Virus record (IMG/VR): IMGVR_UViG_3300008448_000246
Span: 1 to 38,516 of that record
DNA from: a virus
Reading direction: 5' to 3' (one strand)
Length of the DNA: 38,516 bases
Both the position numbers and the translations under genes were made by a program. Position 1 is the first letter of the stretch; every line of letters begins with the position of its first letter. Below, one piece after another: positions 1 to 20,200 of this stretch. Below the pieces are notes generated by a model. It worked only from the letters and a program-made list of their open reading frames with translations. It was not told the origin of the DNA and did not search any database.

Positions 1-1
1 T

Positions 2-577
2 GGAACTGATGAGTTCAATTCTCAACTGCTCACCTATAAGTTCGGTGATGTAGTTTCCCAGCACATTGTTATCGCTCCTCACACTGTGTACGAAGCGAAT
101 GATGATCTGCGCGATAGTTGGGCAGAACCTCTGATGGTCAATCTGCAGAGCGATGATGATGTTCTGTTCGTACAACCTGATGCCTACATTCTGCACGGTC
201 AAACGTCCTTCGCTGATGTAGAGGAAGTCTGCCAGTTTGCCCGTCAAATGGCAACCACTGCAACCTTTGTTTCTGATAAGGAAGCGGCAAAGATCAAACA
301 ACAGATCAATGCCTGCATTCGTGCTGGTGAAGAGATCAACCCTGACGACTTCGATTGTGATACTAACCTGCTGCGTCTGTGGGCGCTTGTGAAGTCTATC
401 AAAGATGACTGCCTCTACCTCTGCCGCAACAATGGTCCTGCAGCATACCTGTACGGCAACAGAATTGATGCTGAGGGTTATGTTCTCTCCAATGAGTTTG
501 GTATGTTCAAACTGGTGAATCGTGAGGTCTTTTCTAACGCTAACTTCAACCACGGGCGCTTTCAGTGTGCCAGTTGA
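2..577 (+). CDS. 5'-truncated gene; possible ligase-like nucleotidyltransferase C-terminus
   Basis: The reading frame is open from the left edge of the window, so the true start lies outside; the GTG at 86 is internal to this frame. About 191 codons are visible. Near the C-terminus there is an EGYVL segment followed about ten residues later by FKLVNREVFSNANF. This resembles motif IV (EGxV) and motif V (hydrophobic-K-hydrophobic) of covalent nucleotidyltransferases such as RNA ligases and related phage proteins. The lysine of motif I, which would decide the matter, would be off the left edge. The middle (HxVYEANDD, LFVQPDAYILHG) is not diagnostic. The base composition is milder than that of the GC-rich small genes that follow. 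The assignment to the nucleotidyltransferase superfamily is inference from two short motifs; that it is a real coding gene is much surer. Confidence 0.6.
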   Translation, partial: GTDEFNSQLLTYKFGDVVSQHIVIAPHTVYEANDDLRDSWAEPLMVNLQSDDDVLFVQPDAYILHGQTSFADVEEVCQFARQMATTATFVSDKEAAKIKQQINACIRAGEEINPDDFDCDTNLLRLWALVKSIKDDCLYLCRNNGPAAYLYGNRIDAEGYVLSNEFGMFKLVNREVFSNANFNHGRFQCAS

Positions 578-618
578 GGCACTGTCCACCAACTGCCCCA
601 TTGCCCCCCATCTGCTGC

Positions 619-643
619 CATACTGATCTCAGTTCACAAGCGA
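619..643 (+). promoter_or_regulatory. Promoter module copy 1 (CATACT -10, dyad, CAGTTC block)
   Basis: CATACT at 619-624 is a -10-like hexamer, followed by the dyad ACTGA-TC-TCAGT and a conserved downstream block (here with an insertion, CAGTTCACAAGCGA). The hexamer begins 30 bp before the ATG at 649. No convincing -35 element is present at 16-18 bp. First of seven such modules. Confidence 0.6.
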
Positions 644-648
644 ACCCA

Positions 649-810
649 ATGCGCTTTGAAGTCCGCTACCAGACCCCCTACAATGCCTGTGAGTGGCGGT
701 CGCAATGGTTCACCACCAAAGAGGAAGCGGACCGCATGGTAGACTTCTATCGCTCCTGCGGTTCCCCCTCTCACATCGCCCCCTCCTCCCTGGCACAACT
801 GGAACGATGA
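649..810 (+). CDS. Small hypothetical protein, 53 aa
   Basis: First gene of a three-gene set linked by ATGA overlaps, starting 30 bp after the first promoter module. The ATG at 649 is chosen because longer in-frame starts (from 565) would run through the promoter motif. The product (MRFEVRYQTPY...) contains a WRSQWFTTKEEADRMVDFYRSCG stretch of alternating aromatic and charged residues, like small phage single-domain proteins that handle row-wise parameters, but I do not recognise a family. GC-rich codon use (CTG, CGC, GCC) contrasts with the structural genes further right. No Shine-Dalgarno sequence is visible in the C-rich leader. It is probably an early gene; the function is unknown. Confidence 0.6.
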   Translation: MRFEVRYQTPYNACEWRSQWFTTKEEADRMVDFYRSCGSPSHIAPSSLAQLER

Positions 811-989
811 CTGAAACCCAACGCTTCGAAATGATCAACGACCTGATTCATTCTGTTAAGGTCTCAATCTATCATCACCAAAGCAAAGGCAACATCAACG
901 CTGCAAATGCCCTGTTTGAAGAGTGGCAGGAATGGGTCGTTGATGGACCCCGTGAAGTTGAATTGATGGACTCCATCCTGCCAGCATGA
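807..989 (+). CDS. Small hypothetical helical protein, 60 aa
   Basis: The ATG at 807 overlaps the stop of the preceding gene as ATGA, the classic arrangement for translational coupling. A longer in-frame reading from 693 would overlap the preceding gene almost fully and is less likely. The protein (MTETQRFEMINDL...) looks like two or three amphipathic helices, with acidic residues and Trp in the second half (FEEWQEWVVDG). No domain is recognised. It shares the next ATGA overlap with the downstream membrane protein, so the three genes 649-1153 are most likely one transcript from the module at 619. Confidence 0.6.
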   Translation: MTETQRFEMINDLIHSVKVSIYHHQSKGNINAANALFEEWQEWVVDGPREVELMDSILPA

Positions 990-1153
990 TCAACGCCCTG
1001 ACCCGTTCCCGCTCCCCTGAGTTTCACCGCGCTACCATGCTCCGCCTGACCGTTGCTGCTCTGCTGCTCTGGTTGCTCTGGGAACCGATCCGCCCCGTGC
1101 GGACTGTGACAGCAGACCTACTGTACACTGCAGGCGACCTGATCGCCCGCTGA
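986..1153 (+). CDS. Small single-pass membrane protein, 55 aa
   Basis: The ATG at 986 overlaps the previous stop as ATGA, and the frame stays open to TGA at 1151-1153. After a basic N-terminus (MINALTRSRSPEFHRAT) there is a hydrophobic run of about 16 residues (MLRLTVAALLLWLLW), then a short polar tail (EPIRPVRTVTADLL). This predicts one membrane-spanning helix, with the N-terminus cytoplasmic by the positive-inside rule. Small membrane proteins of this kind in phage early regions can act in lysis timing, superinfection exclusion or host membrane takeover, but nothing in the sequence chooses among these. It is the last gene of the coupled trio; the next promoter module begins 6 bp after its stop. 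Confidence 0.55.
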   Translation: MINALTRSRSPEFHRATMLRLTVAALLLWLLWEPIRPVRTVTADLLYTAGDLIAR

Positions 1154-1158
1154 CCCCC

Positions 1159-1181
1159 TATACTGATCTCAGTTCAAACGA
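1159..1181 (+). promoter_or_regulatory. Promoter module copy 2
   Basis: TATACT at 1159-1164, then the full dyad ACTGA-TC-TCAGT and the block CAGTTCAAACGA ending at 1181. The hexamer begins 33 bp before the ATG at 1192. A C-rich tract lies immediately upstream and no -35 match is seen. Confidence 0.65.
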
Positions 1182-1191
1182 ACCGCCTCCC

Positions 1192-1422
1192 ATGCTGAAC
1201 TTCCTCCTGGATCACCTGCCCGTGTTCATCAATGTGGACTGCCAGGGCAGCGATGCCTGTGATGCCATCATCCTGTCGCCCCTGACCCGTACCGCGATCG
1301 TCAAGTGGCAGTCGGGCAGCGTTGCAGGTTACCCCTGCCGCCGCCGCGACATGCTGCCCCTGCTGTTCAACCGCGACCTGAGCAGGGGACAGTGGGCAAA
1401 CCGCACCCTCCTGGCATACTGA
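1192..1422 (+). CDS. KTSC-like small protein, 76 aa
   Basis: Single gene behind promoter module 2, with its own promoter-to-ATG spacing of 33 bp and no visible Shine-Dalgarno. The core reads: hydrophobic strand (DAIILSPLTRTAIVKW), a Gly turn (QSGSVAGYPC), then a helix and a terminal S-x-G-QWANRTLL motif. This order (strand, xF/WxSG, Y, helix, SxGxxxNxxI) is the layout of the KTSC domain, a small beta-rich domain common in phage and bacterial proteins and sometimes fused to lysyl-tRNA synthetase. I infer the resemblance by eye; the family's biochemical role is not established. An alternative is an unrelated orphan early protein. Confidence 0.55.
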   Translation: MLNFLLDHLPVFINVDCQGSDACDAIILSPLTRTAIVKWQSGSVAGYPCRRRDMLPLLFNRDLSRGQWANRTLLAY

Positions 1423-1437
1423 GCACTCCTGACCCCT

Positions 1438-1460
1438 TATACTGATCTCAGTTCAAACGA
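1438..1460 (+). promoter_or_regulatory. Promoter module copy 3
   Basis: TATACT at 1438-1443, then the dyad ACTGA-TC-TCAGT and CAGTTCAAACGA, identical to copy 2 across the whole module. The hexamer begins 30 bp before the ATG at 1468. Confidence 0.65.
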
Positions 1461-1467
1461 CCCCACA

Positions 1468-1692
1468 ATGGACACGACCTTCAACGGATGGGCAAACTGG
1501 GAGACCTGGAACGTCGCCCTGTGGATTCAGAATGATGAGTCCCTCTACCATGCTGCCCGCCGCTGCCGCAACTATCAGGACCTGGTTGCCCAACTCTGGG
1601 AGTGTGGCAGCAAGGAGACTCCTGACGGTTGCCGCTGGGATGACCCTGCCATCGACGGACTGGAGATCTGTGAGATGATGGACGATCTCTGA
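1468..1692 (+). CDS. NGWxNxxTW-family small phage protein, 74 aa
   Basis: The N-terminus carries NGWANWETWNVALWIQNDE followed by a Y-x-x-A helix. This is the signature of a widespread family of small phage and bacterial proteins (pattern NGWxNYxTWxVxLWxxND, curated as a domain of unknown function). The rest is an acidic helical tail ending EICEMMDDL. Total length is ordinary for the family. It stands alone behind promoter module 3. A hairpin at 1703-1723 lies just after its stop and could end its transcript before promoter module 4. The function is unknown; its recurrence in phages suggests an early accessory role. Confidence 0.75.
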   Translation: MDTTFNGWANWETWNVALWIQNDESLYHAARRCRNYQDLVAQLWECGSKETPDGCRWDDPAIDGLEICEMMDDL

Positions 1693-1702
1693 ACCGTCCA
1701 TC

Positions 1703-1723
1703 AGGGGGCAGAGTGTGCCCCCT
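1703..1723 (+). terminator. GC-rich stem-loop, possible terminator
   Basis: Perfect 8-bp stem: AGGGGGCA, loop GAGTG, TGCCCCCT, placed 11 bp after the stop of the 74-aa gene and 9 bp before the next -10 hexamer. No U-tract follows, so it may be a weak terminator or a 3'-end-protecting structure. Stem-loop plus early promoter is the layout of T4-type mobile promoter/stem-loop cassettes. Arms of the same composition recur in the hairpin at 3044-3071. Confidence 0.5.
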
Positions 1724-1731
1724 CCCCACCC

Positions 1732-1758
1732 TATACTGATTCAGTCAACCGCAAACGA
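1732..1758 (+). promoter_or_regulatory. Promoter module copy 4
   Basis: TATACT at 1732-1737 followed by ACTGA-T-TCAGT (dyad spacer shortened by one base), then CAACCGCAAACGA. The hexamer begins 30 bp before the ATG at 1762. Confidence 0.6.
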
Positions 1759-1761
1759 CTC

Positions 1762-1953
1762 ATGCGCTACATCCCCAGCACCGACCGCGCCATCTCCATC
1801 GATGAGATCGCCGCCCAGTGTAAGGCAGCAATCCTGAAGGCAGATGAGCAACGCCGCGAACAGCAGGAGTTTGATGCTACGATGCAGCAGATCGCAGACC
1901 TCCTGTTCGATGATCGAATCTACTGGCAGGATGATCAACTGATCTGCGCCTGA
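1762..1953 (+). CDS. Small hypothetical helical protein, 63 aa
   Basis: Starts 30 bp after promoter module 4. The sequence (MRYIPSTDRAISIDEI...) is predicted to be largely helical, with a charged segment (KADEQRREQQEFDATM) that could form a short coiled coil, and it ends in an acidic, Trp-containing tail (FDDRIYWQDDQLICA). I recognise no domain. Its composition and size match the neighbouring small genes. A gene without its own module follows 43 bp later and may be co-transcribed with it. Confidence 0.6.
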   Translation: MRYIPSTDRAISIDEIAAQCKAAILKADEQRREQQEFDATMQQIADLLFDDRIYWQDDQLICA

Positions 1954-1996
1954 CCCTCCCCCCTCTCACCCTTTGACCTTTTACCTTCCTTCCATC

Positions 1997-2164
1997 ATGA
2001 CTGCTGACCTTGCCACCGCTCTCCTGAACCGCGCCGCCAACGGTGCTCAACTCCTGGAGATCCTGGAGACGATCGCCAACGATGAGGCAGACGCCAATAT
2101 CGCGGATGCCGCTGCCCATTATGCTGCCATCAGCGCACCGACTGCCGAACCGATCCAATTCTGA
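1997..2164 (+). CDS. Small Ala-rich helical protein, 55 aa
   Basis: ATG at 1997; an in-frame TTG at 1973 is a weaker start. The protein (MTADLATALLNRAANGAQLLEIL...) is an Ala/Leu-rich alpha-helical peptide with an acidic centre (ETIANDEADANIADAAAHYAAI), with no recognised family. It is the only small gene of this region without a recognisable promoter module before it, so it probably shares the transcript of the gene at 1762. A possible stem-loop with a T-tract follows its stop at 2177-2200. Confidence 0.5.
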   Translation: MTADLATALLNRAANGAQLLEILETIANDEADANIADAAAHYAAISAPTAEPIQF

Positions 2165-2176
2165 TAGTGGCACAAC

Positions 2177-2200
2177 GGAGGGGCATCCCCCTTCCCTTTT
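2177..2200 (+). terminator. Possible weak terminator
   Basis: GGAGGGG pairs with CCCC and TTCC across a 4-nt loop with one bulged base, followed by CCCTTTT. It lies 13 bp after a stop codon and 6 bp before promoter module 5. The structure is judged by eye only. Confidence 0.35.
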
Positions 2201-2205
2201 GCCTC

Positions 2206-2228
2206 TATACTGATTCCAGATCAAACGA
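2206..2228 (+). promoter_or_regulatory. Promoter module copy 5
   Basis: TATACT at 2206-2211, then GATTCCAGATCAAACGA. The right arm of the dyad is degraded (CAGAT instead of TCAGT) while the CAAACGA block is kept. The hexamer begins 28 bp before the ATG at 2234. Confidence 0.6.
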
Positions 2229-2233
2229 CACCG

Positions 2234-2428
2234 ATGACCGAAGACCGCCTGCTCCACCTCTATGATGAACTGCTGGTCCTGGCAGAGCGTCAAGCGGTGG
2301 ACCTCTATGGTTGCGACCTGGACCACCTGGACCCTGAGATCCTGGAGTTCTACGGGTCTAAACTGACGGAGGACAACCTGGAGGAACTGGCATCCGACCT
2401 TGCCCATGAGGCATGGTTCGCCAACTGA
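2234..2428 (+). CDS. Small acidic hypothetical protein, 64 aa
   Basis: Single gene behind promoter module 5. The product is strongly acidic and helical (MTEDRLLHLYDELLVLAE..., YGCDLDHLDPEILEFYG, TEDNLEELASDLAHEAW). High negative charge with small size is a trait of DNA-mimic and host-protein-binding phage proteins, but it is not sufficient to call one. No family is recognised. Its last codons overlap the position of the next promoter's upstream region, so the genes are packed with almost no spacer. Confidence 0.6.
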   Translation: MTEDRLLHLYDELLVLAERQAVDLYGCDLDHLDPEILEFYGSKLTEDNLEELASDLAHEAWFAN

Positions 2429-2440
2429 CCCACGACCTGC

Positions 2441-2463
2441 TACAATACTCTCAGTTCAACCGA
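2441..2463 (+). promoter_or_regulatory. Promoter module copy 6
   Basis: TACAAT at 2441-2446, then ACTCTCAGTTCAACCGA: the left dyad arm is shortened while the downstream block is kept. A poor -35 (TTCGCC, 2417-2422, 18-bp spacer) lies upstream. The hexamer begins 29 bp before the ATG at 2470. Confidence 0.6.
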
Positions 2464-2469
2464 CACCCG

Positions 2470-2640
2470 ATGCGCTTCCCTCTGGCAATGTGCTCTGACC
2501 TCCAGACCCGTCAGATCAAATGGATCTCCCGCGCCGATCAACTGAAGAACGGATCCCGCCCCTCCTCCTACATCCATTGGGGTCTGCCCGCTACCGTCAT
2601 CGCCGCCCAGTACTCTGAGGCACACGCTGGGCGGGGTTGA
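2470..2640 (+). CDS. Small hypothetical protein, 56 aa
   Basis: ATG at 2470; an in-frame ATG at 2413 would place the promoter module inside the gene and overlap the previous gene, so it is rejected. The product (MRFPLAMCSDLQTRQIKWI...) has mixed charge with SRPSSYIHWGLPATVIAAQYSEAH in the second half. No domain is recognised. Its stop codon lies within the TTGACC -35 element of the next promoter, so the transcription units abut directly. Confidence 0.5.
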   Translation: MRFPLAMCSDLQTRQIKWISRADQLKNGSRPSSYIHWGLPATVIAAQYSEAHAGRG

Positions 2641-2680
2641 CCCCTGCCCCCTGACCCTGTACAATTCTCTCAGTTCACCA
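2637..2680 (+). promoter_or_regulatory. Promoter module copy 7 with full sigma70 -35/-10
   Basis: TTGACC at 2637-2642, a 17-bp spacer, TACAAT at 2660-2665, then CTCAGTTCACC. This is the only copy with a good -35 at consensus spacing; its left dyad arm is lost. The -10 begins 30 bp before the ATG at 2690. Confidence 0.7.
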
Positions 2681-2689
2681 CCCCACCCC

Positions 2690-3034
2690 ATGACCTACAC
2701 CATCACCCGCCTTCCCCGTCGCGGTCCCCGTAAGGGTGAGACCTGGATGCGTGGGTCTCAGTCCCATGGCACCTCTGGCGGTGTGCAGTCCGTTCGTGCT
2801 GGCGACGGCGACCACACCCTCACCTCCCGTGGTCGCTCTCAGGGTTCGGGCGATCGTTGCGTTGGTGCTGGTCTGACCCTTAACGCTGTCGGCGGCATCG
2901 GTAAGGTGATGGTCGCTGATCTGGATAGCGTCATCGCCAACGCCAAGGCACAGCATCGCGCCGATCGTATCGCCGCTGCCCGCGATCGTCTGATGCAGCG
3001 CGTCGGGCACTCTGACCTGGCAGTCCGCTTCTGA
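2690..3034 (+). CDS. Gly/Arg-rich hypothetical protein, 114 aa
   Basis: The longest complete ORF of the GC-rich block, behind promoter module 7. The N-terminal half is basic and rich in Gly, Ser and Arg (PRRGPRKGETWMRG, HTLTSRGRSQGSGDRCVGAG). The C-terminal 45 residues form a basic amphipathic helix (DLDSVIANAKAQHRADRIAAARDRLMQRVGH). This suggests a disordered basic N-terminus attached to a helix, which could bind nucleic acid, but no family is recognised. Frame and codon bias agree with the other small genes. It is the last gene before the composition change; two GC hairpins follow its stop. Confidence 0.55.
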   Translation: MTYTITRLPRRGPRKGETWMRGSQSHGTSGGVQSVRAGDGDHTLTSRGRSQGSGDRCVGAGLTLNAVGGIGKVMVADLDSVIANAKAQHRADRIAAARDRLMQRVGHSDLAVRF

Positions 3035-3043
3035 CCCCACCCC

Positions 3044-3071
3044 CTGCCCCCTGCGTGTTCGTGGGGGGCAG
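3044..3071 (+). terminator. Stem-loop ending the GC-rich gene block
   Basis: CTGCCCCC at 3044-3051 pairs with GGGGGCAG at 3064-3071 around a 12-nt loop, starting 10 bp after the last small gene. There is no U-tract. It is a candidate transcription end for the early block. Confidence 0.45.
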
Positions 3072-3090
3072 TCGTTCGTGTTGGGCAGGT
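3057..3090 (+). repeat. Tandem imperfect 17-bp repeat
   Basis: GTTCGTGGGGGGCAGTC (3057-3073) is followed directly by GTTCGTGTTGGGCAGGT (3074-3090). The first unit contributes the right arm of the hairpin at 3044-3071. Confidence 0.6.
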
Positions 3091-3101
3091 CCCCCGTCCG
3101 C

Positions 3102-3123
3102 CGCGCCCCTTAGCGCGGGCGCG
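3102..3123 (+). terminator. GC hairpin at the composition boundary
   Basis: CGCGCCC pairs with GGGCGCG across an 8-nt loop and is followed by TTATAAATT. Together with the hairpin at 3044 it fills the intergenic gap between the GC-rich block and the AT-rich block. The rest of 3124-3244 shows no gene, only a six-base dyad TGGGTC/GACCCA (3136-3163 area) and a short direct repeat. Confidence 0.4.
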
Positions 3124-3190
3124 TTATAAATTCGATGGGTCCCCATAAGCTATAAACGACCCAGATCGACCTCTCAATATCTCTCTAATT

Positions 3191-3264
3191 AAAAAATTCC
3201 GGAGAATATATAATGTTATCAAAAGGTTGAACATTATACTAAAAATGAAAAAAAATTCCGGAGA
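3191..3264 (+). repeat. Direct repeat AAAAAATTCCGGAGA (two copies)
   Basis: The 15-bp sequence occurs at 3191-3205 and again at 3250-3264. The first copy provides a Shine-Dalgarno-like CCGGAG before an ATG at 3212 that opens only a five-codon ORF. The second copy is inside the N-terminal codons of the 56-aa gene. It may reflect a small local duplication at the start of this gene. Confidence 0.6.
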
Positions 3265-3415
3265 TATTTTTGAGTCCGTACAAGTCGATCCAATTACTGG
3301 AGAATATTACATTGTACTTCCAGAACAGATTATCAATGAACTTTTATGGTATGAAGATACTGAGATTAAAATTACACTCGAAGGCAATGAAGTAATTTTA
3401 TCAGATAGAGTCTGA
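3245..3415 (+). CDS. AbrB/SpoVT-like small protein, 56 aa
   Basis: ATG at 3245 is chosen over an upstream in-frame TTG at 3227. After MKKNSGDIFESV the sequence reads QVDPITGEYYIVLPEQIINELLWYEDTEIKITLEGNEVIL. This is the swapped-hairpin AbrB layout: a strand with a Gly turn, then a P-E-x-I-x-x-x-L segment, then a D-x-E-I-x-I-x-L-E-x-x-x-I-I strand. Such proteins bind DNA as dimers (AbrB, MazE). Short proteins of this type are common in T4-like cyanophages. No toxin partner is adjacent, so a phage regulator is likelier than an antitoxin. Fold assignment is by motif; the role is inferred. Confidence 0.65.
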   Translation: MKKNSGDIFESVQVDPITGEYYIVLPEQIINELLWYEDTEIKITLEGNEVILSDRV

Positions 3416-3444
3416 TTGACAACCGCTACATAATATTGTATGAT
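3416..3444 (+). promoter_or_regulatory. Strong sigma70-type promoter
   Basis: TTGACA (3416-3421), a 17-bp spacer, TATGAT (3439-3444). The -35 is perfect and the spacing is consensus. It overlaps the stop of the AbrB-like gene and lies 23 bp before the ATG at 3468. The sequence continues ACTGAAGT, partly recalling the dyad of the early modules. Confidence 0.75.
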
Positions 3445-3467
3445 ACTGAAGTAAACAACTTATCTTT

Positions 3468-4226
3468 ATGGCTAAAGGATTTACAGTTAAAGCAAAAGCT
3501 CCCGTCGTAAATAAAACACAACAAGAATGGGACTATAATCTAGCCAGGGAGATGGTCAGAGGCAAGTCAATTGTTTTCTGTCTTCCTGGACGTGGTGTTT
3601 CTTACACCTATTTGAAGAACTTCGTTCAACTCTGTTTTGATCTTGTGCAGAGTGGGGCAAACATTCAAATCTCGCAAGATTATTCATCAATGGTAAACTT
3701 TGCAAGATGCAAGTGCTTAGGCGCGAACGTCCTGCGAGGACCTGACCAGATTCCCTGGGACGGTAAATTAAAATATGATTATCAATTGTGGATTGATAGC
3801 GATATTGTGTTTACCACTGAAAATTTCTGGCAACTTATCCTCATGGATAAGGACATTGCTGCTGGTTGGTATTGCACCGAAGACGGTCATACAACTTCGG
3901 TCGCTCACTGGTTGGAAGAAGATGACTTCCGCAATAATGGTGGAGTCATGAATCATGAAACTCTAGAGAGTATTGCAAAGCGTCGTAAACCATTCACTGT
4001 TGATTATACTGGATTTGGTTGGCTTCTAATTAAGAATGGTGTCTTCGAGCATCCTGAAATGAAGTATCCTTGGTTTGCACCTAAAATGCAAGTCTTTGAA
4101 TCTGGTGATGTTCAGGACATGTGTGGAGAAGACGTATCTTTCTGTTTAGATGCTAAAGAAGCAGGCTTTGAAATCTGGTGCGACCCTCGCATTAGAGTTG
4201 GTCACGAAAAATCAAGAATTATCTGA
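3468..4226 (+). CDS. GT-A fold glycosyltransferase-like protein, 252 aa
   Basis: Residues 34-40 form a first strand (SIVFCLPGRG), and a DSD motif (LWIDSDIVF) sits at 110-112, where GT-A enzymes bind the metal and nucleotide sugar. Near residues 220-249 the pattern E-D-x-x-F-C-x5-A-G-F-E-I-W-C-D-P-x-x-x-V-x-H matches the acceptor-side acidic motif and terminal strand of family-2-like glycosyltransferases. Length is about that of a minimal GT-A domain. There is no signal peptide or membrane segment, so it should act in the cytoplasm. Similar genes occur in T4-like cyanophages next to baseplate genes. The substrate is unknown: phage DNA, a virion protein or host surface sugar are all possible. 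A consensus sigma70 promoter drives it. Confidence 0.7.
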   Translation: MAKGFTVKAKAPVVNKTQQEWDYNLAREMVRGKSIVFCLPGRGVSYTYLKNFVQLCFDLVQSGANIQISQDYSSMVNFARCKCLGANVLRGPDQIPWDGKLKYDYQLWIDSDIVFTTENFWQLILMDKDIAAGWYCTEDGHTTSVAHWLEEDDFRNNGGVMNHETLESIAKRRKPFTVDYTGFGWLLIKNGVFEHPEMKYPWFAPKMQVFESGDVQDMCGEDVSFCLDAKEAGFEIWCDPRIRVGHEKSRII

Positions 4227-4230
4227 TAGA

Positions 4231-4425
4231 ATGGCTAACGAACGGTATAATATTCTCTGTAAGGGAAAAAGAATTTATAGTTCTCTTACAGAGGAAGAAT
4301 ACTTCAATACAATGGAGGATCTGTCAATTGAGTATTATCAGACAGGTTCTCCAAATCCATCTGACATTGAAACTGAAATTTTACTAGAGGATAATATATG
4401 GCAGCAAAAGCAAAAGGCGGTTTGA
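4231..4425 (+). CDS. Small conserved-looking hypothetical protein, 64 aa
   Basis: ATG at 4231, five bases after the preceding stop; upstream in-frame ATG codons lie inside the glycosyltransferase-like gene and are rejected. The protein begins MANERYNILCKGKRIYSSLTEEEYFNTMEDLS, a beta-hairpin then helix pattern, and ends in an acidic helix. I recall similar short proteins in cyanophage structural regions but cannot name a domain. Its end overlaps the next gene by 28 bp in a different frame, typical of compact phage operons. Confidence 0.65.
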   Translation: MANERYNILCKGKRIYSSLTEEEYFNTMEDLSIEYYQTGSPNPSDIETEILLEDNIWQQKQKAV

Positions 4426-4553
4426 ACAAGCACAGTTCTTATATTCCTGGTCCGCCGAAAAAGTCTCGTCAAGGAGATGGAAATGGAACCAAATACGCCG
4501 CTTCGTCTCGCAATGGGGCACGTAAAAAGTACAGAGGACAAGGTAAAGGGTAA
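4398..4553 (+). CDS. Small basic protein, 51 aa
   Basis: ATG at 4398, preceded by AGAGG seven bases upstream and overlapping the previous gene in another frame; the stop TAA at 4551-4553 overlaps the next start as TAATG. The product (MAAKAKGGLNKHSSYIPGPPKK...) has about 14 Lys/Arg among 51 residues and ends ARKKYRGQGKG, with Gly/Ser between. It is very likely disordered and nucleic-acid binding. The coding case rests on the tight overlaps on both sides and on its similarity in style to short Lys/Gly-rich cyanophage proteins. It could help DNA condensation; this is inference. Confidence 0.65.
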   Translation: MAAKAKGGLNKHSSYIPGPPKKSRQGDGNGTKYAASSRNGARKKYRGQGKG

Positions 4554-5152
4554 TGTATTTACTAGAATGTGATGACGAATGGAATCATATACATTCTAAA
4601 GACCTTTGGGTTTACAATAAATTATTTTTAGCTCGGGTTTTGGGTTATACTTGTGGTCCTGCGGGAACTACAGTACCAAAACCCGATTTTTATATTGTAC
4701 GCCCGTCTTTTAATTTATTCGGTATGAGTCGTTTTGCTCGTAAAGAATGGATTGAAAAGAGAACTGATGATATGCACCCATCAGAATTCTGGTGCGAAAT
4801 CTTCGAAGGTGAACATTTAAGTGTGGATTTCCATCATGAGCAACAAGATTTAACAATATTGGGTACAAAGGACAAAGAGGATCCAATCTACAAATGGTCT
4901 AAATGGGAAAAAATAGATAAAAAAGTTGATTTTCCAAATATTTTAAAAAATTTAAATGGAAATTATGAATGGATTAACTGCGAATTCATTGGTGGGCAAT
5001 TAATAGAAGTTCAATTTCGTAGAAATCCTAATTTTAGGTATGGAAATTCCGTTGCAATACCAATTTGGGGAGAACAAACAGAAGAAAGTACTGGAGAATA
5101 TCAATTTATTAAAGATGAAAGTTATGAACGTAAGGGTTTTTGGATTAAATAA
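4553..5152 (+). CDS. Hypothetical protein, 199 aa
   Basis: Starts at the TAATG overlap with the preceding gene. It contains alternating hydrophobic and aromatic strands (WVYNKLFLARVLGYTCGPAG), a segment PDFYIVRPSFNLFGMSRFARKEWI, and a C-terminal part rich in charged residues (YGNSVAIPIWGEQTEE). The IVRPxxNLxGM stretch faintly recalls the first half of ATP-grasp enzymes, but no glycine-rich loop or metal triad can be pointed out, so no function is claimed. The gene sits in a short operon between the glycosyltransferase-like gene and speD. A late-promoter-like octamer overlaps its stop codon. Confidence 0.65.
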   Translation: MYLLECDDEWNHIHSKDLWVYNKLFLARVLGYTCGPAGTTVPKPDFYIVRPSFNLFGMSRFARKEWIEKRTDDMHPSEFWCEIFEGEHLSVDFHHEQQDLTILGTKDKEDPIYKWSKWEKIDKKVDFPNILKNLNGNYEWINCEFIGGQLIEVQFRRNPNFRYGNSVAIPIWGEQTEESTGEYQFIKDESYERKGFWIK

Positions 5153-5155
5153 ATA
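5148..5155 (+). promoter_or_regulatory. Late-promoter-like octamer AATAAATA before speD
   Basis: It matches NATAAATA, the T4-type late promoter form reported in cyanophages, and lies 37 bp upstream of the speD ATG. It overlaps the stop of the upstream gene. It is a single short motif, so chance is possible in AT-rich DNA. Confidence 0.4.
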
Positions 5156-5191
5156 GATTTTTTATAAAACTTTGAGTTGGAACAGTATTCA

Positions 5192-5518
5192 ATGGGTAAG
5201 CACCTGCTCTTAGAGGTGTATGATGTTCAATTTGACCTAATCAATGACGTAAATTCTCTACAAAACGTTATGATTAGGGGCATAGAACGTGCAAAGATGA
5301 CGATTTTAAATACATTTTCACACTGTTTCCTGCCACAGGGGTGTACAGTTGTAATTGCACTGGCTGAAAGTCATGTTTCTTGTCATACTTGGCCAGAAAA
5401 TGGGTGCTTGGCAGTAGATGTTTATACTTGTGGTGAGGGAAATCCTCGTTTGATCGCATTAGAAATTCTAAAATACTTAGATTCAGACTCTTACTCACTT
5501 AGAGAACTCGATCGTTAA
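5192..5518 (+). CDS. speD: S-adenosylmethionine decarboxylase proenzyme, 108 aa
   Basis: Decarboxylates S-adenosylmethionine to supply the aminopropyl donor for spermidine synthesis. The ATG at 5192 (MGKHLLLEVYDV) is preferred to an in-frame TTG at 5177. The family signature L-A-E-S-H-V-S-x-H-T-W-P-E is at 57-69 and D-V-Y-T-C-G at 76-81. The self-cleavage bond is Glu59-Ser60, with Ser60 becoming the pyruvoyl group; His65 and Cys80 are the expected catalytic residues. These are three less than Ser63, His68 and Cys83 of the Thermotoga enzyme, so spacing is fully conserved. It is a short, prokaryotic class 1B-type enzyme, full length and apparently functional. It is a known cyanophage auxiliary metabolic gene. 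Here it is flanked by structural genes and behind a late-type octamer, so it is likely expressed late. Confidence 0.95.
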   Translation: MGKHLLLEVYDVQFDLINDVNSLQNVMIRGIERAKMTILNTFSHCFLPQGCTVVIALAESHVSCHTWPENGCLAVDVYTCGEGNPRLIALEILKYLDSDSYSLRELDR

Positions 5519-5526
5519 ATAGAAAT

Positions 5527-5546
5527 AAGGAGATAGCAACCTCCTT
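5527..5546 (+). other. Stem-loop AAGGAG/CTCCTT
   Basis: A 6-bp perfect stem with an 8-nt loop, 8 bp after the speD stop. It could shield an AAGGAG ribosome-binding-like sequence or mark a transcript end. No T-run follows directly. Confidence 0.4.
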
Positions 5547-5556
5547 TATAAAAGTT

Positions 5557-5578
5557 CTGTTTTATTCAATTAAAACAG
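5557..5578 (+). other. Stem-loop CTGTTTTA/TAAAACAG before a start codon
   Basis: A perfect 8-bp stem with a 6-nt loop, ending directly in CAGGAG, the likely ribosome binding site of the gene at 5587. The right arm touches the GGAG, so folding may modulate initiation. Confidence 0.45.
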
Positions 5579-5586
5579 GAGCTAAA

Positions 5587-5841
5587 ATGTCAAATTTACC
5601 CGTCGATAGAGACGAAAATTACATGTACCAAATGTGGGGTACAAAAAAATTAGCAACAGATTATACACCTCTTGAAGAAAAAAAAGTTATTCAAGAAATA
5701 ATGCATGATGATATTGGTAAAAAACATCATTTGAAAGAACAATCTAATCTACATCAACAGATTCGCAATGATGAAGACTACGATGATTGGGAATATGGAA
5801 CAGAACCATCATACGGATCTCCCTGGAATCAACATAAATAA
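5587..5841 (+). CDS. Small acidic hypothetical protein, 84 aa
   Basis: ATG at 5587 with a good ribosome binding site (AGGAGCTAAA) just after a hairpin. The product is hydrophilic and charged: MSNLPVDRDENYMYQMWGTKK, then a helix (PLEEKKVIQEIMHDDIGKKHHLKEQ) and a very acidic tyrosine-rich tail (NDEDYDDWEYGTEP). No domain is recognised. It lies between speD and gp25 in the same orientation. The absence of hydrophobic segments argues for a soluble, partly disordered protein. Confidence 0.65.
   Translation: MSNLPVDRDENYMYQMWGTKKLATDYTPLEEKKVIQEIMHDDIGKKHHLKEQSNLHQQIRNDEDYDDWEYGTEPSYGSPWNQHK
5833..5840 (+). promoter_or_regulatory. Late-promoter-like octamer CATAAATA before gp25
   Basis: It matches NATAAATA and sits 22 bp upstream of the gp25 ATG, across the end of the preceding gene. 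This is the expected place for a late promoter of the baseplate operon. Confidence 0.45.
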
Positions 5842-5861
5842 ATAAAGAAATTTTATGTCCG

Positions 5862-6263
5862 ATGGCAGTAACAAGGATATCTAGGTCATTTAAAGATATT
5901 AGTTTATCCTTCGTTCCACATCCTGTGACTAAGGATTTACCTGTATTAAAAAATCAATCAGCAATTATTCGTTCTATCCGTAATTTGGTAGAAACAATAC
6001 CTAATGAAAGATTTTTTAATACATTGTTAGGATCAGATGTACGTTCAAGTTTATTTGATTTTGTCGATTCTGCTACAGCATCTATCATTCAAGATCAAAT
6101 ATTAAATGTCGTATCAAACTATGAACCAAGAGTTGAAAATCTAACTGTTGAAGTAAATCCAAGTCCAGATACAAACACATTTGATGTTTCTGTTATTTTT
6201 GATATCATTGGACAAGAAGTTCCGACACAACAATTTACTTTCATCTTAGAGGCAACAAGATAA
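5862..6263 (+). CDS. 25: Baseplate wedge subunit gp25
   Basis: T4 gp25-like wedge protein, which joins gp6 and gp53 at the inner baseplate and helps start sheath polymerisation. The 133-aa length equals the T4 protein (132 aa). The conserved EPR triad is at residues 88-90 (NYEPRVENLTVEV), following the helix DSATASIIQDQI, as in gp25 and the type VI secretion protein TssE. The start (MAVTRISRSFKDISLSF) is the second of two close ATG codons; the ATG at 5855 opens only nine codons in another frame. It is followed after one base by gp6, its structural partner, which supports the call. Confidence 0.93.
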   Translation: MAVTRISRSFKDISLSFVPHPVTKDLPVLKNQSAIIRSIRNLVETIPNERFFNTLLGSDVRSSLFDFVDSATASIIQDQILNVVSNYEPRVENLTVEVNPSPDTNTFDVSVIFDIIGQEVPTQQFTFILEATR

Positions 6264-8201: not shown

Positions 8202-11200
8202 ATGATAGAAACTGGTTTTGAGTATAGAGTAAAGATTCAACAAGTAGTTGAGAATCAACTTCCAGAATTTATTGTCGATGAAAATCCTACTGCCGTAGAA
8301 TTTTTTAAACAATATTACGTCTCGCAAGAATATCAAGGTGGAACTGTTGATATCGCAGAGAATTTAGATCAATATTTAAAATTAGACAATTTAACACCTG
8401 ATGTAATAGTTGGATTTACTACACTTTCCAACAATGTAAGCTCGAGTTCGGATATAATTCAAGTATCAAGTACTAAGGGATTTCCCCAAAGTTATGGATT
8501 ATTAAAAATTGACGATGAAATAATTACATATACTGGATTAACAACAAATACTTTTACTGGTTGTATTCGCGGATTTTGTGGTATTACAACTTATAATGAT
8601 GTTTTAAATCCTGGAGAGTTAGTTTTTTCGGAAAGTTCTGCATCCGAACATTCTGAATTATCACCTGTTCAAAACTTAAGTTCTTTATTCTTAAAAGAAT
8701 TTTATAAAAAGATTAAATATTCTTTAACACCAGGATTAGAGAATAAAGATTTTGTTTCTGAATTGAATGTTGGAAACTTTATAAAAGAAGCAAGAACTCT
8801 TTATCAATCAAAAGGAACTTCCGAATCATTTAGAATTTTATTCAAGATATTATTCAATGAATCTCCAAGAATTGTTGATCTGGAAAAATTTACAATTAAA
8901 CCTTCATATGCAACTTTTGTAAGAAGGGATGTAGTTGTTGCAGAAGTAATTTCTGGTGACCCATTAAATCTAAAAGGTCAAACAATATTTAAAACAACAG
9001 ATCCCAATACGTCAGCATCAGTTTCTGAAGTTGAATTAATTAGAAGAAAGGGTAAGTCATATTATAAATTACTACTTTTTGTGGGATATGACGATTCTGC
9101 TCCTACAATTACCGGAACATTTAATATTACAGGATCTACTAAGAATATAGACTACGTTTCTGCAGGTAGTTCCAGTATAATAGTTGATTCTACAATTGGA
9201 TTTCCTGATAGTGGAATAGTTTATACTGATAACAATACCATAGTTTATGGCAGTAAAAGTATTAACCAATTTTTCGAATGCTCTGGCATAAACGTTGGTA
9301 TTACTACAGCAGAAACAATATATTCAGAAGAAACATATTATGGATATGAAGATGGCAATACTGATAATAAAGTTGTAATTAGAATTTCTGGAGTTTTGTC
9401 CGAATTTGAAGCAGATCAATCAAGTACAACAGCATTAAGTATAGGTGAACAGATATATGTAAAAAATATTGGTGAAAAAATTAAAAATCCATCTTCAAAT
9501 AAAACATATAAAGAAATCTTTGCAAATAGTTGGATTTACAATACAAGCTCAAGATATTACATAGACACATTTGCCCCAGCCTCAACTCCAAACGGCACTC
9601 CTGTAACTACCAACCAATGTATTTTGGCAAGTTCTATTGACAAGTCAAGTTTGAAGGTGGGAGATTCTATTGATGTTCTTAATAGAGATTCTCAAACAAT
9701 AATTAAATCTAATATCAAAATTACTGCGATTAATGGAAATCAAATAACAACTAATTCATCATTTACCTTAACTAAGGGATCAAGTTATGATATTAGAAGA
9801 AGAATTAAGACTGCAAGTAGTTCGGTTGTTCCTCTTCAATTTAATAAAATAACATCAGATATTCAAAATGTATATAATGGTAATGATGATTACATTTATG
9901 TGGCATCAAATTCTTTCCCATCTTATACCATATCTAAAAAGATTTTTTCATATAATATAGTTAACGTTACAGACTTTGATTCGGAAACAGGAACTTATTC
10001 CACGTTAGTTTTTTCCCAACAAGTTTCTTTCTTAACTGGAAGCGAAGTATACTATACACATACAGATTCTCCCATAGAATCACTGAGTGAGGGTATATAT
10101 TATGTTCAAGTTTTGCCCGGAAATACACAGGTTAAATTATATGCTTCTAGATCTGTAATAGGTTCTTCAAACTATTTAACTTTTGGACAAGTTCTATCTG
10201 GAACTCATACTTTAACTTTAAATTCTCAAAGAGAAAGGATACTTTCTCCACAAAAAATATTAAGAAAGTTTCCATTATCTGTAAATTATGATACCGGAGA
10301 TCAGGAGATTGATTTCACTGAACCTGGTCCTGTAGGAATGTTGATTAATGGTGTTGAAATTTATGGATATAAATCTGAAAGTAAAGTTTATTATGGTCCA
10401 ATAGAATCGGTAAATGTTTTAAATGGTGGGACTGATTATGATGTAGTTAATCCACCCATACTGAATGTTTCTTCAGGCATAGCTTCAGTACGTCCTATTG
10501 TTAGTGGAAAAGTTGAAAGAATTTTTGTTGACCCTCAAGAATTTGACGTTGATGTCATAGTCTCTATTGCTATTACTGGTGGAAATGGTAAAGGAGCTTC
10601 ATTCGATCCTATTTTGGAGAGAAGACGGAGAGAAATTTCTTTTGATGCAAGATTATTAACAGATGAAGGTGGTGTTGATGTTGTTAATGATACGATAACA
10701 TTTTTGAATAATCATGGATTAATCAATGGACAACCAATAACTTACAGACCAGGATCGAATCAACCTCTAGGCGTAGCAACATTTTTAGGTGGAGATTCTA
10801 TTCAACCAGGCAATTTCCTAAAAGAAGAAACAGTTTACTATACAAAATTTATTAGTGATACAACAATTCAACTTTATCCTTCACTAAATGACTATAAGAT
10901 AGGAATTAATACGATTGGATTTTCGACCGCAGGAACTTCTGGTATACACAAATTTGCAACCGAACCAAGAAAAACCTTAACAGAAATTAAGGTAGTTGAT
11001 TCTGGAAGTGGATATACCAATAGAAAATTGAGCGTTCTCAGATCTGGAATATCCACCGTAGAGAATATAGTCTTATTCAATAATCATGGATTTAATGATG
11101 GAGATATAATTGTATATTCAAATACTGCTATTGGATCTTCAGTTGCTAGTCCTCTTTCCGGATTAACTACGACAAAACAATATTATGTTCTCAAATTAGA

Positions 11201-17200: not shown

Positions 17201-20200
17201 TGGCGCAACAACTGATTATTTGGGATTCGTCACAAACATTATGCCTCCTGTTGTTTGGGCAATTAGAATTGATAATGATTCATTCCGATTAGCAGCAACA
17301 TTAAATGATGCATTATCTGGAATTGCTATAACATTTACATCTGAAGGATCTGGTAATGCACATGAATTGGAAATGGAAAAGAAAGTTGAAAAAACTATTA
17401 TATCAATTAATAATATAATTCAAAGTCCAATATCATATACAAAATTAAATTACACTCTTGATAATTACGGATCTATCGGAACAGCTTCAACAATTTTCAA
17501 ACTTAGTGGAATTAATTCAATTCGTATTAGTGATATTTTAAAAGTTGATAATGAATATATGAAGGTAGTAAATCTTGGACTTTCAACAACTCCAACTGGT
17601 CCAATTTCTTTTGCTGGAACTTTCCCATTAATTCAGGTTGAAAGAGGATTTGTTGGCACTTCAGCATCAACTCATGTAGATTTTAGTAATGTTTCTCTCT
17701 ATAGAGGATCATATGGCATTAATAAAAATACTATATGGTTTACTGAGCAACCAGAGGGTAATTTACAAGACCAATTATTTTCAGATTTAGACAATCTTCC
17801 AGAGTCTAGAGCATATTTTAATGGAAGAGTTTTCTTAAGAAAAGATTATACCACAAATATAATATATGACGATATTTCTGAAGAATTTAATGGGATAGGA
17901 AGAACTTATACTTTAACAATAAATGGTATTAATACATCTGGATTAGGATCCGATGGATCTAATGGTATTGTTATACTTAATGGAATATTCCAAACCCCAA
18001 CTACACAAAATAACCCAGCAAACAATTACAGCATTGTTGATAATACTACCTTTACTCAGGATCCATTTGCACCATATTATCTTAGACCAGATGAATATAC
18101 TGGATTTAGTGCTGGTCTTACTACCAATCCAGAGTTCACATCCGAAGTTGGTATTAGTAGTATCGTTTTTGCAGGAATTACTTCAGCTGGAACCGGAGAT
18201 TATATAACTTCACCATCTGATGTTAATTTAAATGAAGTTCCTAGGGGTGGTATTATTGTATCATTAGGATCCACTCCAGGACTTGGTTATGCGCCTTTAG
18301 TGGGAGCAAAAGTTAAAGCTACAGTTGGTGCTGGAGGAACCATAACAAATGTTGTTGGAATTTCTTACACAGGACCTTCTGTTGGAGTTAATACTGCTTT
18401 TTATGACCATGAAACTGGAGTAATTACAATAAGAACTTCAGTGGACCATGGTTTAATTGAAAACGATAGAGTTAGATTAGTGGGATTTGCATTTACGTGC
18501 CCTTCTGGTGCAGGAGTAGTTTCATATTTCCCATCACCTAAATTTGGCGCATATTTGTGGGAGGTTACTGGAATTCTCTCGTCTAGAGGATTTACCGCTA
18601 ATGTTGGAACAAGTACATTGCCACACACCTATGTTGGATCCGCATCCCTTGGATTTGGCACTGTATTCCCATGGTATAACTTAAATATTGGATCTGGATA
18701 TAGATCACCAGTATCAATAGCAATATCAGCACCAGTTGGATCTGGAGCAACAATATCTGCAACAGTAGGTGCAGGAGGTACATTATCATTTACTGTAGTT
18801 AATCCAGGATCTGGATACACTTCCATTGGATCAAGTGCTCCTAAATTTTATATTGCTCCACCAAACTATGAGAATCTTGAAGTAGTTGGTGTCTCTAGAC
18901 TGAGTGTAGGTTCAACAACAGATTGTGGATTTGGGTTGCTATTAAATCTTGAAGTTGGAGCAGCCTCAACAACTGGTGTTGGATCTTCTGATTTATTTGA
19001 GGTTAAAAATTTCAAGATTGCAAGAAATGGTTATGGATTCCAACGGGGAGATGTTATTAAAGCTGTTGGACTTGTAACTGCTAAAGGATTAGGAGCTCCT
19101 ATAAAAGAATTCCAATTAACAGTTTTGAAAACTTTCTCAGATTCTTTCTCATGTTGGCAATTTGGCGAAATGGATTATATTGACTCTATTGCCAGTTATC
19201 AAGATGGATCTAGAACAAGATTCCCATTATATTATAACAATGAATTAATAAGTATTGAACAAGGAGACTCACCAGAGTCGGTATTAATTGACTTTGATTC
19301 TTTATTAATTGTTTTTATTAATGGAATATTACAAGAACCTAAAGTTTCTTATGCATTTGAAGGTGGAAGTGCTATAGAATTTACACAAGCCCCTAGACCT
19401 GAAGATAAGGTATCAATATTTTTCTACAGGGGAAGTGATGCTGATAGTAGAGTTTATAATGTAATAGAAACTATAAAAGATGGAGATATTGTTCAAATAT
19501 TTTCAAATAATACTTTATCGGGAGTGACTACCACTCAAGAAGAAAGAACCGTAACCGAAATTTTATTCTCGGATAAAATTCAAACAGATCTTTATATCGA
19601 TCAAGGAGTGGATATTGTCAATAATAAACCAATTTATTGGACTAAGCAAAACACCGATAAAGTTATAGACGGTAAAATAATTTCAAAAGCAAGAGATTCT
19701 ATAGAACCACAAATTTATCCAACAGCAAGAATTATTAAAACCTTTGACAGTTTGTCTAATGAATTGTGGGTAGATAATGCCGAATTTTTCAATTATGAAA
19801 ATGTTGATGTTAATGAATTCTCATGTTCTGGATTAATAGTTACTGGTGAAGATGATCCAGTCGGAGCTGCAGCTAGTGCTACTGTTAATGCGAGTGGTAG
19901 AATTAGTGCGATTTCAATAACGAGTGCTGGTAGTGGATATTTTTCTTTGGGTCCAGCTGGAACAACTGTTCAACTGGAAATTGCAGCACCCACAAAAGTT
20001 GGAGTTGGTATTGGATCAACAGCAATTGGATACGCTGTAGTCAGTTCTACTGGGACAGTTACTGGTCCTGTTGTATCTTTCAGTGGTCTTGGATATACAT
20101 CCACTAATCCTCCAAGAATAATTGTTGAAAAACCTGTACCAGCATATGAATTCATTACTGAAATAACAACAGTTGAGGGATTTTCCGGAACTATTACAAA

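Follow-up and report, generated by a model that had tools for sequence, protein, structure and literature searches.

The middle promoters of phage T4 have no -35 and depend on a MotA box at -30, and the promoter early stem-loop (PeSL) cassettes of T4-type phages carry a strong sigma-70-like promoter with both -35 and -10. In 2016, Doron et al. reportedly described a novel regulatory element that controls early genes in Syn9/P-TIM40 and is said to be conserved among T4-like cyanophages. PeSL cassettes place an early promoter and a stem-loop between small genes in a gene-exchange region (Arbiol 2010 and Comeau 2014, as described in PMC4503421). Here, we analyzed an array of seven promoter modules leading small genes near the start of IMG/VR virus record IMGVR_UViG_3300008448_000246 (positions 1 to 38,516; this whole stretch of 38,516 nucleotides is referred to as the window). 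The 38.5-kb record is a T4-like cyanophage, most closely related by DNA to the Synechococcus phages S-SRM01 and S-SKS1. Most modules carry an upstream palindrome, and judging from their sequence we think it rather likely that they are early-type promoters of the host polymerase with a site for a dimeric activator, set here in short gene cassettes.

PeSL cassettes are like this array in having an early promoter and a stem-loop between small, exchangeable genes. They differ in that the array has a putative operator palindrome and a fixed initial transcript, and T4, RB49, and KVP40 are without the palindrome. Relative to the -35 and -10 of a PeSL promoter, the modules have the -10, but the -35 is missing in most copies. 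An earlier note on this stretch had set it apart from the T4 promoter/stem-loop cassettes; the sequences are indeed unrelated, but the arrangement, a hairpin and a promoter between small exchangeable genes, is closer than it held. The likeness to T4 middle promoters would lie in an activator site that replaces the -35, but the palindrome sits at about -54 and has other letters. Promoter logos showed no conserved element at the place of the MotA box (-30), although no scan specific to MotA boxes was made, and T4-like cyanophages are described in the relevant part of PMC5780444 as lacking motA and/or asiA. Integron arrays consist of promoterless cassettes with attC sites and an integrase, whereas the cassettes here each have their own promoter. 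The element that Doron et al. described in 2016 is probably this palindrome: it is reported to control early genes and to be conserved among T4-like cyanophages, and the palindrome promoter is found both in Syn9 and throughout that group. What the present counts contribute is the array of cassettes, the CAGTTCAAACGA start, the leaderless genes as a class, and the way in which palindrome and -35 are related. Sullivan 2010 searched for sigma-70, late, Pho, and NtcA promoters and names no palindrome in the extracts of the paper used here (PMC3037559), and the available portions of three S-PM2 studies (PMC4503421, PMC10976474, and PMC5931967) do not mention it. Among the papers that our literature searches listed, no title or abstract opening names the array or the palindrome, a weak negative with the full text of Doron 2016 outside it. 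To the same weak degree, we met no precedent in the literature searched for a cassette array with a fixed initial transcript, for the leaderless class, or for the palindrome/-35 relation.

The -10 hexamers of the seven modules start where the earlier note had placed them, at 619 (CATACT), at 1159, 1438, 1732, and 2206 (TATACT), and at 2441 and 2660 (TACAAT). From each -10 start it is 28 to 33 nt to an ATG. When the window was scanned with a profile made from 441 modules, all of them unlike the window's own, six of the seven copies were found at 23.9 to 40.1 bits. None of 1,000 dinucleotide shuffles of positions 500 to 3100 reached 10 bits, nor did any site on the reverse strand of the window, and the sole site above 8 bits outside the array was at 11181. 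Copy 4 (1732) was missed, with a score of -32.1; its leader is a variant, TTCAGTCAACCGCAAACGA. A bare 14-mer with three mismatches matched the window six times against 3.68 expected. Because this is not significant alone, the evidence for the array comes from the full profile together with the relatives, and these confirm that the seven-copy array is real.

The family of modules in viral contigs was built by three seed scans and an iterated profile; its loci were found via seed patterns, and the counts are hence no census. Seed loci that were window or S-PM2 duplicates or reference stretches (L001 to L005, L036, and L094 to L101) were dropped before the family counts, and near copies were removed by identity before the family, upstream-alignment, and palindrome counts. 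We found 811 module copies (454 non-redundant) at 210 loci, whereas reversed sequence gave 1 to 13 as the threshold went from 14 to 12, and in 209 of the 210 loci all modules lie on one strand. An open reading frame (ORF) is in place for 778 of the 811 modules (763 with ATG), with a median length of 64 amino acids (aa). The 772 complete module-led proteins fall into 86 families, the largest being DUF7249 with 79 members, whose next genes come from 22 different families. Between adjacent modules there is no space for a second gene in 343 of 569 pairs. When pairs were compared for junctions, 141 of 153 and 64 of 84 had theirs within a module, a placement that crossover in the module and mere conservation of the motif would produce alike. 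The core 20-mer occurs exactly in 88 viral contig stretches; a 40-nt query against the phages collection matched three records and no others, each of them either S-PM2 or the deletion mutant of S-PM2, and the pattern TAYAMTNNTCTCAGTTCAAACGA found no module in genome_contigs. The earlier note had proposed that the genes of a regulon share a promoter module, including one regulator site and one 5' leader common to all, and had named absence of the motif from relatives among the results that would speak against this. Since the modules are present in relatives, that proposal gains support.

The module as drawn in the earlier note ended too far downstream and missed a palindrome. Alignment of the sequences upstream of the copies revealed a conserved box, and realignment on this box brought out its mirror image at a fixed distance. 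The 24-bp consensus, TGKGMCAGTT-N4-AACTGKCMCA, is centered ~54 bp before the predicted start and was found in 215 of 294 upstream-non-redundant copies, at an offset to the -10 that varies mostly by one base. Over 330 viral loci there were 1711 palindrome sites, compared to 36 in the reversed control. Among 1699 non-redundant orientations of these sites, a -10-like hexamer starts 26, 27, 28, or 29 nt after the palindrome in 49, 255, 262, and 91 cases, respectively, and 32 or 33 nt after it in 28 and 60; every other offset accounts for 17 or fewer. In all, 875 of the 1699 orientations, approximately one per site, have such a hexamer at 25 to 32 nt, mostly at 26 to 29. Given that a -10 follows in about one orientation per site, the palindrome is nearly always part of a promoter, and the modules marked by CAGTTCA are one class of these, 190 of 870 aligned palindrome promoters. 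In the window, copies 1 to 5 have a palindrome, beginning ~55 bp before the -10, and no -35, while copies 6 and 7, with TACAAT, have no palindrome and a weak and a good -35, respectively. Only modules 1 to 4 and a site at 19956 reach 9 on the symmetric profile in the window. The palindrome of module 1 is also the one match to the consensus with up to three mismatches, against 0.01 expected.

The start of transcription can be placed through promoters of a second kind. In 46 promoters the -10 start and the ATG are exactly 12 nt apart, and in others the distance forms a broad peak at 26 to 36 nt; the interval from 13 to 25 nt holds 14 promoters in all. We infer that the ATG at exactly 12 nt is the first transcribed codon of leaderless genes and therefore that +1 is at position 12. 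In the modules this position is always an A, that of CAGT, and lies seven bases downstream of the final base of the -10; the most conserved letters are CAGTTCA, from -1 to +6. The hexamers (TATACT, TATAAT, or TACAAT) and the bases after them do not match the T4 late promoter core, TATAAAT. The module leader is ~17 nt long, A/C-rich, and poor in Shine-Dalgarno (SD) sequences, with SD-like matches in 12 of 185 leaders compared to 7 after shuffling, as the earlier note had observed in the window. These properties would suit a different, though compatible, account in which CAGTTCAAACGA is mainly a translation element, a short-leader start that recruits ribosomes without a Shine-Dalgarno sequence, and AAACGA, which has AAAGGA variants, does occupy the SD place 5 to 9 nt before the ATG. 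Conservation peaks at CAGTTCA, however, and not at AAACGA, and the same promoter also serves genes that are leaderless or have other leaders. We regard translation as a possible but doubtful main role.

Palindrome and -35 are inversely related. A TTG is found at the -35 place in 27 of 343 copies with the palindrome (score of at least 8) and in 28 of 94 copies without it (score below 2), intermediate scores (7 of 444 copies) being excluded (Fisher 2e-7, in a test that treats copies as independent after near-copy removal). The palindrome is present in 221 of 232 copies with TATACT or TATAAT but in 60 of 129 with TACAAT. In the window, a clear -35 was found only in copy 7 (TTGACC-17-TACAAT), in agreement with the earlier note; copy 6 has the weak TCGCCA and the others nothing. 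Given that palindrome promoters mostly have no -35, their regulator would be an activator. Later repression of phage early promoters is common, and a site upstream of the -35 would still be compatible with repression by looping. The palindrome could then be a repressor operator that silences early genes, in modules that are otherwise ordinary weak sigma-70 promoters. A repressor, however, gives no cause for the loss of the -35 where the palindrome is present, and the palindrome lies clear of the -10, the -35 place, and +1. We consider repression unlikely, and prefer activation.

We also compared the mirrored positions of the palindrome arms. Watson-Crick pairing was the same as for independent columns (0.97 versus 0.97, 0.67 versus 0.68, and 0.40 versus 0.39) and fell below independence at positions 9/18 and at the center. 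Mutual information exceeded that of shuffles at some mirrored pairs (the outermost, 9/18, 10/17, and the center), yet with fewer Watson-Crick pairs. The absence of any pairing excess between the arms therefore points to a protein operator rather than an RNA stem, and the palindrome looks like a site that a protein would bind. Stems do occur nearby: those of at least six pairs between palindrome and -10 are somewhat enriched, in 66 of 190 module promoters (24 when shuffled) and 210 of 685 other promoters (98 when shuffled). Copy 5 has a G+C hairpin with a T-rich tail on the plus strand at 2177 to 2195, and several AT-rich phage sites have a hairpin and a T-run in the same place; T-runs are uncommon among the module promoters (6 of 190), and positions 500 to 3500 of the window hold three terminator-like sites against 2.1 expected. 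The upstream repeats might be read from this as RNA stem-loops, terminators as in T4 PeSL cassettes, with no DNA-binding regulator. But the hairpin is a second, separate element, and the palindrome itself shows no Watson-Crick excess, keeps a near-fixed distance to the -10, and can fall within the last part of a coding sequence (1103 to 1130 in the window), which leaves this account with little probability. The start-site dyad ACTGA-TC-TCAGT, which the earlier note had taken for the common site, is perfect in copies 1 to 3 and in the class with the most copies (TACTGATCTCAGT, 107 of 444), but we rejected it as a highly improbable operator. Across the family, 144 of 444 copies keep the left arm ACTGA, which the -10 accounts for, compared to 390 that keep the right arm TCAGT; pairing between mirrored positions does not exceed that of independent columns, and only the right arm, CAGTTCA, is conserved.

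The palindrome promoter is a property of T4-like cyanophages, the freshwater phage S-CRM01 included. With up to three mismatches, the palindrome occurs 24 times in S-CRM01, 17 in S-SRM01, 15 each in P-SSM2 and S-SSM7, and 9 in S-SKS1, as well as 8 times in S-RSM4, 7 each in S-PM2 and Syn9, 5 in S-T4, 4 in S-CAM7, 3 in S-CAM1, 2 in Sf-CH5, 1 in S-TIM5, and 0 in Syn1 and Ma-LMM01 (reversed control, 0 to 1 in every genome). A slightly wider pattern gave 13 matches in P-HM2, 9 in P-SSM4, and 2 in S-TIM5, and none in T4, RB49, KVP40, the cyanopodoviruses Syn5 and P-SSP7, or Ma-LMM01 (control, 0 to 2). Scored together over the whole genomes of five cultured T4-like cyanophages, palindrome and -10 were counted 19 times in Syn9 (control, 3), 28 in S-CRM01 (3), 35 in S-PM2 (3), 24 in Syn1 (6), and 37 in P-SSM2 (0). 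On the plus strand of Syn9 from 42 to 59.5 kb, four of the seven predictions with scores of at least 14 lie 27 to 30 nt before independently annotated starts.

The palindrome occurs in 31 stretches of genome_contigs, compared to a rough estimate of ~15 expected, and seven of these are cyanobacterial, with isolated sites: Nostoc (twice), Mojavia, Calothrix, Cyanothece, Microcystis, and Xenococcus. Among 291 cyanobacterial genomes, taken as one set with picocyanobacteria not set apart, 126 have a match with up to two mismatches, at 0 to 5 per genome, which by eye resembles the reversed control. Given these counts, and given that genome_contigs held no module at the pattern used, we rejected a host regulon. 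Nostocales contigs (L224 at 3108 and 5192, L225 at 4977, and L235 at 1893) carry isolated copies of the form GTGACAGTT-N4-AACTGTCAC, and the Mojavia palindromes lie upstream of two paralogous genes.

The mechanism that we propose is as follows. Host RNA polymerase would read each module as an early-type promoter of T4-like cyanophages. From 5' to 3', such a promoter would comprise the 24-bp palindromic operator at ~-54, a variable and often hairpin-forming spacer, mostly with no -35, the -10 (TATACT or TATAAT), and the A that serves as +1. In the array class, the predicted initial transcript AGUUCAAACGA makes up most of the ~17-nt leader, which has no SD and is followed by the AUG. A dimeric regulator, phage- or host-made, would sit on the palindrome and replace the absent -35 contact, acting as an activator. 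The TACAAT subclass, including copies 6 and 7, would often do without the regulator site and more often have a -35. The array itself would be a cyanophage hyperplastic region, in which short cassettes, many with their own promoter, are gained and lost upstream of gp25. Several observations weigh against the proposed mechanism. The palindrome is lacking in 79 of the 294 upstream-non-redundant copies and in window copies 6 and 7, and S-TIM5 has merely 1 or 2 weak sites. Two of the Syn9 predictions, 44827 and 48611, fall just downstream of an annotated start, and 53049 falls 63 nt before one. Among the 680 palindrome promoters that are not of the module class, 181 have a TTG at the -35, compared to 6 to 51 at shifted places, which indicates that the operator does not strictly replace the -35. 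In addition, the copies compared for the -35 come from related phages and are not independent, and -54 is an unusual distance for activation.

We speculate, more tentatively, that these promoters form a phage-wide early regulon of ~20 to 40 promoters, served by a single dimeric activator, either made by the phage or delivered with the virion, for which the palindrome provides the binding site in place of a -35. The array near gp25 would then be a plug-in site for small genes equipped with the operator, the -10, and the AGUUCAAACGA start, and leaderless mRNAs would be a natural second form. For a virus group that is among the most abundant, the analysis defines early-type promoters precisely enough to be tested and suggests how a promoter could work with no -35, and the 24-bp palindrome offers a handle for finding the activator.

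The simplest guess is that the protein on the palindrome comes from the phage or its virion; one from the host, with few sites in the host genome, may serve instead. The earlier note had suggested testing the AbrB-like protein at 3245 for binding; its match to MazE_antitoxin falls below the Pfam cut-off. A homologue was present in 11 of 19 phage records examined, and at the sensitivity used, at which over-diverged homologues may be missed, none was found in S-CRM01, S-SSM7, S-RSM4, or Syn9, which have 24, 15, 8, and 7 palindromes. Because it was not found in these palindrome-rich phages, we consider the AbrB-like protein unlikely as the regulator. Five genomes compared have 58 ORF clusters in common. 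A 66-aa protein that appears helix-rich by eye (PHROG 1920, of unknown function, with no Pfam match) was set aside, as nothing links it to the palindrome.

All modules and ORFs of the array are on the plus strand. The earlier note had described single small genes, which is the case for copies 2, 3, 5, 6, and 7 but not for copies 1 and 4. The putative operator of module 1, at 564 to 591 (the 24-bp palindrome and two flanking bases per side), has the best profile score in the window (25.9); its -10 at 619 to 624 (27.6 bits) predicts +1 at 631, and behind it, from 649 to 1153, are three overlapping ORFs of 53, 60, and 55 aa (649 to 810, 807 to 989, and 986 to 1153), the first belonging to a family of 26 found behind modules. 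The palindrome of module 2 (1103 to 1130, score 14.7) lies within the end of the upstream ORF; the module, at 1159 to 1181 (40.1 bits), has its predicted +1 at 1171 and the sequence CAGTTCAAACGA, and its 76-aa ORF at 1192 to 1422 matches PHROG 7365, of unknown function (E 1.3e-09). Module 3 has the same sequence at 1438 to 1460 (40.1 bits, predicted +1 at 1450), a palindrome at 1383 to 1410 (score 15.1), and a 74-aa DUF7249 ORF at 1468 to 1692 (Pfam PF23907, E 5e-20; PHROG 871, E 1.8e-26). Module 4 (1732 to 1757), which does not match the 23-mer profile, has a palindrome at 1676 to 1703 (score 15.4) and a leader of a kind also found behind palindromes elsewhere; two ORFs of 63 and 55 aa (1762 to 1953 and 1997 to 2164) occupy 1762 to 2164. 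In module 5 (2206 to 2228, 29.7 bits, predicted +1 at 2218), the palindrome at 2149 to 2176 has a weaker left arm (score 12.9), and the 64-aa ORF at 2234 to 2428 is from a family with 13 members behind modules. Module 6 spans 2418 to 2463 (34.2 bits), with a palindrome score of -6.3, i.e., none, and its 56-aa ORF at 2470 to 2640 has a family of 48 behind modules. Module 7, at 2637 to 2682 (23.9 bits), leads a 114-aa ORF at 2690 to 3034 from a family of 35 behind modules.

The genomic setting is shared among relatives. In S-PM2, 11 modules lie at 21.5 to 24.8 kb, neighboring the ORFanage, around which Puxty 2015 (PMC4503421) found PeSL-type cassettes too sparse. Of the 11 module-led ORFs (AJ630128, 21570 to 24802; L102), eight share their stop with no annotated gene, and the modules could thus serve as an annotation aid in this reference phage. 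Genes p071 and p074 are annotated on the minus strand over some of these ORFs, and the S-PM2d record adds one, S-PM2d250. Module recombination was rejected as the origin of the S-PM2d deletion, which has its left end (5798) outside any module. Beside that deletion, ~370 bp (L442, 5799 to 6172) match S-PM2 in register on neither side, and the ORFanage event may have been something other than a simple deletion.

In the window, the baseplate genes gp25 (5862) and gp6 (6265) are downstream of the array, and in 13 of 13 records with known module positions gp25 lies 2 to 10 kb downstream on the same strand; S-SKS1 and S-SRM01 have merely one or two module-like copies each. This is the same genomic place as hot spot (ii) of Sullivan 2010, the "small genes between gp46 and gp25" (excerpted from PMC3037559). 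The first three kilobases of the window are 50 to 61% G+C, compared to ~29 to 42% in the remainder, and the modules are located in the G+C-rich part. Array genes (600 to 3100) are ~59 to 61% G+C and C-rich (skew of about -0.16), and structural genes ~32%. A search for RNA families found none in window positions 1 to 6000. A TATAAAT, the T4-type late promoter core, is at 3125 to 3131, where the G+C-rich array gives way to an A+T-rich region. Just before and at the AbrB-like ORF, identical SD-like 15-mers, AAAAAATTCCGGAGA, occur at 3191 to 3205 and 3250 to 3264, and these are quite different from the array leaders.

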